The notes beneath the pieces were generated by a model, which was not told the origin of the DNA, did no database searches, and saw only the letters and a list, made by a program, of their open reading frames with translations. Shown here in pieces: positions 3,737-32,521 of a stretch of DNA of 37,998 nucleotides. This DNA is from a virus. The position numbers and the translations under genes are program-made. The stretch covers positions 1-37,998 of IMG/VR virus record IMGVR_UViG_3300044643_000282; one strand, given 5' to 3'. The first letter of the stretch is position 1. Each line of letters starts with the position of its first letter.

Positions 3737-3774
3737 GGCCAGCGAAAATAAGGGGAAACAAATTTTCGCTGGCC
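3737..3774. other. Strong hairpin between DUF1064 and the replication gene
   Basis: GGCCAGCGAAAAT (3737-3749) and its exact complement ATTTTCGCTGGCC (3762-3774) form a perfect 13-bp stem with a 12-base loop. No T-run follows on the + strand, so it is not a standard intrinsic terminator. A full AGGAGG (3730-3735) sits immediately before it without a start codon at usable distance. A 14-codon frame (3800-3844) lies between the hairpin and the DUF1376 gene. Possible roles are an RNA processing site, translational control or a replication element. Confidence 0.6.
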
Positions 3775-3846: not shown

Positions 3847-4605
3847 ATGCACTATTATAAATTCAATATCGGCGATTACGCCAGATCGACAAGACATCTG
3901 AGCAACGAAGAGGACTTAGCTTTTCGTCGGTTGCTTGATATGTATTACGAAACAGAATCACCTATCCCAGTGGAAACCCAGTGGGTTGCCAGACGTATCC
4001 GAATAGATGTTGATGTGATCGAAGTGTTGCTAAATGACATGTTTATTCGTTCAGAAAACGGCTGGGTTCATCCAAGATGTGATGCCGAAATAGATGAATA
4101 TCATCGTCAAGCTGAACGCAACAGACAGAATGGTAAGCGTGGTGGACGACCGAAAACTGCGGTAAAACAGACATCGGAAAACCCAGTGGGTTCCGATTCG
4201 GTATCCAGTGGGGAGCCAGTCGTAACCCTAACCACTAACCATAAACCACTAACCATAAACCATAAACCAATTATTATAAGGGAAATTCCAGATTGGTTTC
4301 CAATGGATGCTTGGCAGGGTTGGGTCGAGATGCGGAAGAAGCGCAAACGCCCATTAACTGAAAGGGCGGAGACAAGGGCTATCAACAAGCTGGAAGCATT
4401 GCATTCAGCCGGACATGACATTGGGGAATTGCTGGACCGCTCAACAATAAACGGCTGGTTGGATATATACGAACCGAAAGGTAATACGAATGCAGGAAAT
4501 AGCGAACACGCAGCAGAACCAACCAACCCAATGGTCAGAGCCGTCCTTGCCAGCCAAGCTAAACGATCTGCTGATGGGGAGCGATTTGCCGACGATTGGC
4601 CCTAA
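3847..4605 (+). CDS. DUF1376 (YdaU-like) replication initiation protein
   Basis: A 252-residue protein with an N-terminal DUF1376 domain (about residues 1-95; HYYKFNIGDYARSTRHLSNEEDLAFRRLLDMYY split over its conserved core). This family occupies the position of lambda O-type initiators in many phages. A basic linker (NRQNGKRGGRP) and a low-complexity linker with two NHKP units follow, then a C-terminal helical domain (about 150-215) with W-rich motifs. The NHKP linker is encoded by tandem DNA heptamers (4231-4265), as in lambda O where the origin lies inside the gene. The next gene overlaps its last 116 bases. Initiator function is inferred. Confidence 0.75.
   Translation: MHYYKFNIGDYARSTRHLSNEEDLAFRRLLDMYYETESPIPVETQWVARRIRIDVDVIEVLLNDMFIRSENGWVHPRCDAEIDEYHRQAERNRQNGKRGGRPKTAVKQTSENPVGSDSVSSGEPVVTLTTNHKPLTINHKPIIIREIPDWFPMDAWQGWVEMRKKRKRPLTERAETRAINKLEALHSAGHDIGELLDRSTINGWLDIYEPKGNTNAGNSEHAAEPTNPMVRAVLASQAKRSADGERFADDWP
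4231..4265 (+). repeat. Tandem heptamer array, candidate intragenic replication origin
   Basis: Five adjacent 7-base units of the form ACCAYWA: ACCACTA, ACCATAA, ACCACTA, ACCATAA, ACCATAA. A degenerate unit lies before them (4225-4230) and one after (ACCAATT), followed directly by an A/T-rich run to about 4280. The first 14 bases (4231-4244) are repeated exactly at 4245-4258. The array lies in the linker of the DUF1376 gene. This matches the lambda ori design (iterons plus A/T-rich stretch inside the initiator gene). Origin function is inferred. Confidence 0.5.
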
Positions 4606-5032
4606 GTCTGCTGGAATCCTGCAACAGTATGTGGATTCGCCACGGCCACCAATGCCAGATCGTGAACAGGTCGAGGTGATGATTGCCAAGCTGGCTCTTG
4701 CCACTGCCAGCCAGAAGCGCAGTCAGGACGAAGAAGCGGAGCGGCTGGAACTTTACTGGATGACCCTTCGCATCTATCCGCTGGTCGATCTGCGGAGCGC
4801 GTTTCTCAAACTGCTGCGCACTTGCAAGTTTATGCCGACCCCTGCTGAGATTGATTCCATTGTACAGGAAGAAGGCAGGGACCGTCGACGCAAATTAGCC
4901 AGAGCGGAATACCTATTGATGATACACCGCCGCGACTACACGCCACCGCAGGAATATGTGTCGGCTGAAGAGTTGGCTGCACTGAACGCTGAACTGACGC
5001 AATCACTGAAAACCAAAGAAGGGATAGTTTAA
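4490..5032 (+). CDS. Hypothetical replication-region protein (possible helicase-loader-like)
   Basis: A 180-residue protein whose ATG follows AAAGG at good spacing inside the end of the DUF1376 gene (116-base overlap). The centre contains a helical stretch, YWMTLRIYPLVDLRSAF followed by CKFMPTPAEI. That F-x-P-x-P-x-E-I ending is reminiscent of phage helicase loaders and of small proteins following O-like initiators. The C-terminus is charged and helical. In gene order it takes the place of lambda P. No ATPase motif is present, so a DnaC-type loader is excluded. The loader idea rests on position and a weak motif only. Confidence 0.55.
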   Translation: MQEIANTQQNQPTQWSEPSLPAKLNDLLMGSDLPTIGPKSAGILQQYVDSPRPPMPDREQVEVMIAKLALATASQKRSQDEEAERLELYWMTLRIYPLVDLRSAFLKLLRTCKFMPTPAEIDSIVQEEGRDRRRKLARAEYLLMIHRRDYTPPQEYVSAEELAALNAELTQSLKTKEGIV

Positions 5033-31481: not shown

Positions 31482-32521
31482 TGAAGCAATTTGTGCTGGG
31501 TTTTATTGCGGTAACTGCATCATCGTCGATGGTGCTTGCACAGGCTGTGTCTGTCGCGCCGACTGAATACGTCTATACCACCACGACGACCAGCACTTCG
31601 GACAACAACAATACGTCCACCAGCACCAACACGAACAACAACAACAACAATTCCACCAGCACATCTACAAATACGAATAACAATAACAGCACATCTGCCA
31701 GCACATCGGTCAACACCAACACGAACACAAACTTCAACACAAACGATAGCACCAGCACATCGCTGAACACGAATAATAACGTGAACACCAGCACATCGCT
31801 GAACACGAATAATAATAACAATAACAATGTCAGCACATCGACGAACACCAACATCAATCAAAACACTGGGACGATGACCAACATCAACCAGAATACCAAC
31901 ATCAATTCTGGCACGATGACGAACATCAACCAGAACACTAACGCCAGCACATCTGAAAATACGAACCGCAATTTCAATACGGATGTGAGCAACAGCACTG
32001 TCAACCAGACGGTAAACAGCAACAACAACAGCACCGTCAACACGAACAACACGAACAACGACACCAGCACGATTAACCAAACGACAAACAGCAACAACAA
32101 CAACGTCAACCAGAACAACAACGTCAACGTCAGCGACAGCAAAAGCTACAGCGAAAGCGTTAATCGGCAGATCATCGACCAAAACATCAAGTCGCCGCCA
32201 CCAAGCGCCATCGCACCGTCGATGATGTCCTACAGCCAAGACCTTTGCACCACAGGGCAATCGGGCGCTGTGCAGACGCAGATCATTGGCCTGTCGGCTG
32301 GCCGTACTGTGCGCGACCAAAACTGCGAACGCATGAAGCTGTCCAAGACCCTGTATGACATGGGTATGCGAGTTGCCGCTGTCAGTCTGCTCTGCCAAGA
32401 TCGTCGCGTTTTTGCTGCAATGGAAATGGCTGGCACACCTTGCCCGTTCATGGGAGCAATTGGCGCGGACGCAACAACGGCTTGGGAAGAAAATGCCGAC
32501 CGCCGCCCTGACGCTGAATAA
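31481..32521 (+). CDS. Exported Asn/Thr/Ser-rich low-complexity protein
   Basis: A 346-residue protein starting at ATG 31481 (a GTG at 31478 is possible). A signal peptide MKQFVLGFIAVTASSSMVLAQA (cleavage after AQA near 22) precedes about 185 residues of Asn, Thr and Ser with runs such as NNNNNN and repeats of NINQNT, STSLNTNNN, TNTNTN. The C-terminal 120 residues form a globular domain with four cysteines (DLC, QNCE, LLCQD, TPCPF). The low-complexity part resembles secreted amyloid or surface-fibre sequences. Similar C-terminal domains occur in environmental phages. Function unknown. Confidence 0.75.
   Translation: MKQFVLGFIAVTASSSMVLAQAVSVAPTEYVYTTTTTSTSDNNNTSTSTNTNNNNNNSTSTSTNTNNNNSTSASTSVNTNTNTNFNTNDSTSTSLNTNNNVNTSTSLNTNNNNNNNVSTSTNTNINQNTGTMTNINQNTNINSGTMTNINQNTNASTSENTNRNFNTDVSNSTVNQTVNSNNNSTVNTNNTNNDTSTINQTTNSNNNNVNQNNNVNVSDSKSYSESVNRQIIDQNIKSPPPSAIAPSMMSYSQDLCTTGQSGAVQTQIIGLSAGRTVRDQNCERMKLSKTLYDMGMRVAAVSLLCQDRRVFAAMEMAGTPCPFMGAIGADATTAWEENADRRPDAE

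Follow-up and report, generated by a model that had tools for sequence, protein, structure and literature searches.

In the phage lambda origin, each iteron is an imperfect inverted repeat of 19 bp and an AT-rich region flanks the iterons; in lambda ori and the Stx phages P27 and 933W, the protein linker becomes longer with additional iterons (PMC7466680). Single strands rich in A/T can also be bound by lambda-type O proteins (PMC7466680). In bacterial oriC, duplex sites, the DnaA-boxes, are followed by short tandem direct repeats of one orientation, the DnaA-trios (PMC6669920), and the B. subtilis DnaD protein reads a single-strand motif opposite these trios (PMC10201434). Contiguous non-palindromic 7-bp repeats have been described in pSM19035 parS, in which at least four Omega/ParB heptads (WATCACW) are needed for full activity (PMC9499535). 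An active origin, oriJ, has been attributed to the Rac prophage (PMC3945230). In the open-access literature, no link of DUF1376 to an origin and no description of the heptamers reported below were found.

The window analyzed here is the entire virus record IMGVR_UViG_3300044643_000282 (37,998 nucleotides). This record of 38 kb is from a tailed phage and includes genes for terminase, portal, head and tail as well as for an ERF annealing protein and an exonuclease. A DUF1376 gene of this phage contains tandem heptamers in its linker-encoding DNA, and it is compared below with its relatives and with the systems mentioned above.

Results

The heptamer array and its host gene

The heptamer array lies in frame within the DUF1376 gene (Table 1) and its units read, in order, AACCACT, AACCATA, AACCACT, AACCATA, AACCATA and a partial AACCA. 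The first-pass annotation of this DNA had proposed five perfect ACCAYWA units followed by A/T-rich DNA at 4225-4280. The five units were recovered, at 4231-4265, together with a sixth partial one, but the array itself is limited to 40 bp. It was detected by Tandem Repeats Finder at periods 7, 14 and 21. With at most one mismatch, AACCAYWAACCA matched five times in the whole window, always on the + strand and within the array, for an expectation of 0.70 ± 0.80; five matches were reached in none of 100 shuffles. The A/T-rich DNA expected after the repeats is present but short. Across 159 related genes, AT enrichment 3' of the array is clear in the first ~10 bp only (+22 points) and no long AT-rich region follows it.

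Table 1. Features of the DUF1376 locus in the window.
Feature	Coordinates (strand)	Basis or remark
Initiator-like gene, 252 aa	3847..4605 (+)	DUF1376 N-domain, linker predicted to be disordered, C-terminal helical domain
DUF1376 N-domain, aa 1-97	3847..4137 (+)	Winged-helix-like model; Pfam and AlphaFold model, weak fold matches
Basic tail NGKRGGRPK, aa 95-103	4129..4155 (+)	GGR[PK] tail type pairs with iteron class A in relatives
Class-A iterons (probable), 11-bp-phased	4180..4229 (+)	Adjoin the heptamers; lag-11 autocorrelation in relatives
Class-A units	4180, 4191, 4202, 4213, 4224	In this order: AACCCAGTGGG, degenerate TTCCGATTCGG, TATCCAGTGGG, GAGCCAGTCGT, AACCCT
Heptamer array, AACCANN x6 (last partial)	4230..4269 (+)	40 bp
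Short A/T-rich patch, ATTATTATAAGG	4270..4281 (+)	Directly after the heptamer array; group AT profile; possible melting site
C-terminal three-helix domain, aa 147-210	4285..4476 (+)	Common to proteins with other N-domains; presumed helicase or loader contact
Gene after the DUF1376 gene, overlapping	4490..5032 (+)	Lambda-P position
Small protein with DnaA domain IV (Bac_DnaA_C, E=3e-10), 97 aa	5327..5620 (+)	Possible accessory replication gene

Several other elements were noticed in the window. A perfect 13-bp inverted repeat (GGCCAGCGAAAAT / ATTTTCGCTGGCC, 12-nt loop) lies at 3737-3774, some 70 bp before the start of the DUF1376 gene, and may be an operator or a hairpin. A stand-alone DnaA domain IV is found on a phage protein close to the initiator-like gene. 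At 31600-32160, beside the tail genes, long and imperfect AAC/CAA-rich repeats stand in tandem, and both AT and GC skew are strong there. The cumulative GC skew has its minimum at ~2.5-3 kb, which is also where the direction of transcription switches, and because of this coincidence the skew is not decisive for the origin.

Domains of the DUF1376 protein

In the 252-aa protein, only DUF1376 (PF07120) exceeded the Pfam cut-off (aa 2-83, E=1.4e-20, 73.9 bits for a gathering cut-off of 30.1), DUF6291 being found below cut-off. Residues 87-221 matched phrog_678, 'replication initiation O-like' (E=9.8e-21). The AlphaFold model of the N-domain is confident and displays helices at residues 8-15, 20-36, 44-51 and 55-65, a wing, and a last helix at 76-97. 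The top matches in the fold searches (Foldseek, VIA-align) were mostly winged-helix proteins at weak scores (Z 4.4-5.5, Foldseek E>0.8). As no strong fold match for the N-domain was obtained by either program, its description as winged-helix-like is based on the model and on these weak matches. In the linker encoded by the repeats (aa 104-144), pLDDT is low (35-58 in blocks), and the domains on both sides of it are modelled with confidence. The linker is thus predicted to be disordered, in agreement with the NHKP linker between two protein domains that had been read from the letters at first.

Distribution of the array

A DNA-only scan of IMG/VR, on both strands, for four AACCA units spaced by 7 bp gave at least 120 stretches. 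Among the matches listed, 111 of the 119 sense ORFs over the arrays contain a DUF1376 domain; four of the other eight are contig-edge fragments in a similar context and the remaining four look like unrelated low-complexity sequence. Three or more sense units are present in 144 of 194 non-redundant genes and antisense units in none; antisense repeats would hold no stops, yet arrays occur on the coding strand without exception. DUF1376 and the array are fused to several clearly distinct C-terminal domains. When homologues of the C-terminal domain of the window were considered, the array was found in 45/56 of those with DUF1376 and in 0/45 of those without it, indicating that the array travels with the DUF1376 domain.

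DUF1376 genes were also gathered by protein similarity alone, leaving 111 after filtering to less than 85% identity in the N-domain. A 7-bp-periodic segment was found in 90 of these non-redundant genes, a 6-bp one in 13 and neither in eight; among the DUF1376 genes that diverge most, many have no clear array. In L207, L216, L217, L235, L242 and L281, which are mostly GC-rich, 6-bp (CACCAA)n or (AACCAG)n repeats replace the heptamers. The heptamer core is AACCA in 140 of the 159 related genes, otherwise AAACA, CACCA or AACTA, and the array is AT-richer than its own gene in 150 of them.

Conservation of the repeats as DNA

In the protein-selected genes, the codons of the N[HQ][KEQR]P motif are almost invariant: AAC in 98/98 cases and CCA in 96/98, against 799/1358 (59%) and 525/1592 (33%), respectively, elsewhere in the same genes. 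The same holds for the other codons of the protein-defined motif (ACC 81/90, CAT 50/50, AAA 50/50, GAA 42/42). With a single motif per gene in a 60% non-redundant set, AAC (19/19, p=4e-5) and CCA (19/19, p=4e-11) still differ from the rest of the gene, and the bias also exceeds that of linker DNA outside the motif. Each position of the five-base core is ~95-100% conserved among 828 units from 159 genes, and the core is constant in all three codon phases, whereas the NN letters vary and shift with the phase; a T at the second N is nearly missing where TAA would result. The first heptamer is read in the three phases in 80, 70 and 9 genes, respectively, and the copy number goes from 3 to 9. Synonymous sites being fixed in the motif, the constraint acts on the DNA; on this codon evidence, the repeats give rise to the N[HQ][KE]P linker as a by-product and the array is a DNA element tolerated by the protein, as first supposed. 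Relatives that are 82-96% identical retain the array despite many NN differences; absence from close relatives, named at first as a point that would refute the origin idea, was not observed.

A second set of sites in 11-bp phase

Directly upstream of the heptamers, a second set of sites was revealed, with an 11-bp phasing and a fixed register to the first heptamer. In the 72 bp upstream of the array of 159 non-redundant genes, the autocorrelation at lag 11 was 0.466, compared with 0.266 in codon shuffles (z=47.8), and it was high at lags 22 and 33 too. The first-pass annotation had taken the heptamers for lambda-type iterons; intragenic repeats they are, but the iterons are probably these phased sites, 4180-4229 in the window, which it had overlooked. 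At least six iteron classes were distinguished among the 159 genes (A 62, B 35, C 17, E 7, D 5, F 2; 31 genes without class), and the heptamer is nearly identical in all of them. Class A, to which the window belongs, has AACCCA at -16/17, -27/28, -38/39, -49/50 and -60/61 from the first heptamer, class B has TTCAAC at -7, -18, -29, -40 and -51, and class C has ATGCG at -16, -27, -38 and -49.

The class of the 11-mers follows the DUF1376 core: without correction for phylogeny, the nearest neighbour is of the same class in 99/128 cases (shuffles: mean 42, maximum 62). By the C-terminal domain, again uncorrected for phylogeny, the figure is 47/126 for a shuffle mean of 41, so that the class does not track the C-terminus. 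The short tail after the core differs likewise between classes. Phylogeny being left uncorrected here as well, GGRP is found in 57 of the 62 class A genes, the other five having GGRKK or GGRRK, and GKASA in 28 of the 35 class B genes. Most class C genes have xxRW types, class D has NQIRW-like tails (5/5) and class E GAAKRW types. A natural recombinant junction was observed between L329 and L111, with a DNA identity of 51% upstream of the array and of 99% downstream; the pair represents a recent module exchange.

HTH_36 proteins with the same C-terminal domain have linker repeats of their own at nearly the same positions. Three sub-groups carry the half-sites TGCA, GTTCA/TGAAC and TGTCA/TGACA, and their putative recognition helices differ in parallel. 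The half-sites of L148, L155, L156, L162, L168 and L169 are at near-constant positions while their letters vary with the putative recognition helix. From sequence, this covariation could represent a specificity code.

Neighboring genes

Among 56 relatives, the gene after DUF1376 matches P-like helicase loaders (18), DnaC-like loaders (9) or DnaB/primase-helicase families (~8), so that loaders and helicases are the commonest of the nameable next genes. Some homologues of the DUF1376 gene are annotated as primosomal or O-like. In the window, the product of 4490..5032 is 29% identical to that of the downstream gene of one relative; no helicase-loader family was recognized in it, the PHROG matches being weak and to families of unknown function. 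The position first likened to that of the lambda origin in gene O is borne out, the repeats lying between a winged-helix-like N-domain and a C-terminal domain, next to genes that, when nameable, are mostly loaders or helicases.

YdaU-type genes were also found on two circular, phage-like records without replicon type, from P. aeruginosa and an Acinetobacter, with six heptamers in one and an irregular array in the other. The resistance plasmid pSWBY1 of Acinetobacter sp. SWBY1 (L397 15900-16790) has a YdaU-type gene with four heptamers and, downstream, an ATP-binding protein. As pSWBY1 also has repM, it provides no test of the origin idea.

Discussion

The linker-encoding DNA of this DUF1376 gene is constrained as DNA, is made of two parts in fixed register, is inherited together with the DUF1376 domain and lies in a replication neighborhood. 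From these features, we consider it very probable that the linker-encoding DNA doubles as a replication origin, bipartite and lambda-O-like. DNA binding by the DUF1376 protein and origin activity are what we infer from the sequences.

Alternative origins of the repeats have to be weighed. If the NHKP/NQEP linker were needed as a peptide, the DNA repeats would simply follow, and the peptide pattern does recur in very divergent proteins. However, AAC, CCA, ACC, AAA and GAA are fixed in genes and linkers that otherwise make frequent use of the alternative codons, and the core stays constant whatever the codon phase while NN depends on it. Moreover, the first unit begins in any phase, the units number three to nine and the linker is modelled as disordered. 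Selection on the protein as the sole cause is ruled out by the codon test, and we give this explanation next to no weight. The same weight is given to replication slippage, in which a neutral heptamer tract, perhaps phase-variable, would grow and shrink. Tandem 7-bp repeats in 3-9 copies could be produced in this way, but slippage should copy NN with the core, and NN varies where the core is at least ~95% conserved. Moreover, the ORFs are open at every copy number, and position, orientation (0/194 antisense) and register to the 11-mers are all fixed. Slippage is contradicted by the NN diversity and by the fixed register.

The linker repeats might also be an operator, bound by the DUF1376 protein for the control of its own gene or the next one and not for replication, since a DNA-binding-like domain beside sites that track its type fits a regulator equally. 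The sites are nevertheless 330-420 bp inside the gene, the neighbors are helicase loaders and helicases, homologues are annotated as primosomal or O-like, and other DNA-binding domains, when joined to the same C-terminal domain, come with sites of their own in the corresponding position; an operator is therefore improbable. Finally, the array could be kept mainly as a homology junction by which phages swap DNA-binding modules. This very improbable role would need neither a fixed register to the 11-mers nor the link to DUF1376 highlighted by the absence of the array where the same C-terminal domain joins other domains. The recent crossover at the array in L329/L111, and the sharing of the array by different iteron classes, agree with such a role, but module exchange is more likely a consequence of the array than its cause.

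According to the bipartite-origin model, the DUF1376 domain and its basic tail would bind the 11-mers as duplex, the copies being stacked on one face of the helix. Assembly on the 11-mers would then engage the adjoining AT-richer heptamers, either for melting and holding of one strand or for the continuation of a filament, and the C-terminal domain would recruit the helicase or its loader, often the product of the next gene. The heptamers, shared between the classes, would be the second element and might serve melting or strand capture. They are AT-biased, keep one orientation, accept a period of 6 or 7 bp and do not depend on the class of the sites, which suits an element that is melted or captured as a strand better than another duplex operator. 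It is conceivable, at rather less than even chance, that the initiator loads on the 11-mers and binds the heptamer strand during melting. The DnaA-trios (PMC6669920) and the DnaD recognition element (PMC10201434) are precedents for an origin of which one strand is read. A filament on the heptamers, like that of Omega on parS (PMC9499535), may form instead. Binding domain and sites form one stretch that ends at the shared array, so that a cassette could be exchanged in a single crossover.

The model proposes a function for DUF1376, a widespread domain without assigned function, namely that of the origin-binding domain of an intragenic origin. The signature of 11-bp-phased sites followed by AACCANN repeats would mark candidate origins in a very large number of phages and prophages, uncultured ones included. 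Phages swapping origin and initiator together is a testable model, and natural swaps should allow protein-DNA specificity to be read, given that the class of the sites goes with the binding domain and the short tail of the latter. Possibly, a second and simpler origin-melting system could be set beside DnaA.

As for lambda ori in gene O, the sites are in the middle of an initiator or initiator-like gene, an N-terminal domain that binds DNA (putatively so here) and a C-terminal domain are encoded on either side and a loader gene is often next. Unlike lambda ori, the present locus combines class-specific units in 11-bp phase with an array of 7-bp direct repeats; its AT-rich flank is small and its N-domain is DUF1376. 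The basal unwinding system of oriC resembles it by duplex sites, putative here, directly before short direct repeats of a single orientation; it differs from the DnaA-trios in that the units are of 7 (or 6) bases and not 3, no AAA+ initiator is present and the locus is intragenic. Strand capture, if it occurs, might tentatively be seen as a phage counterpart of the DnaA-box/DnaA-trio arrangement, with a non-AAA+ initiator, intragenic and exchanged as a cassette. Contiguous non-palindromic 7-bp repeats are shared with the Omega/ParB heptads, but these serve a ribbon-helix-helix partition protein and occur in mixed orientations in promoter regions, whereas the heptamers have one fixed orientation inside an initiator-like gene. 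The DUF1376 protein is a distant homologue of YdaU from the E. coli K-12 Rac prophage, over two domains (26% identity over 240 aa, E=8e-17). The ydaU linker contains GTTCAA-type sites and the next gene encodes YdaV, a putative ATP-binding protein by annotation, but AACCANN is absent and a 6-bp ATAAAG/ATACAG stretch is found instead. The locus is filed as a probable intragenic phage origin, new by its type of site, its added heptamer array and its putative binding domain DUF1376, outside the lambda O family.
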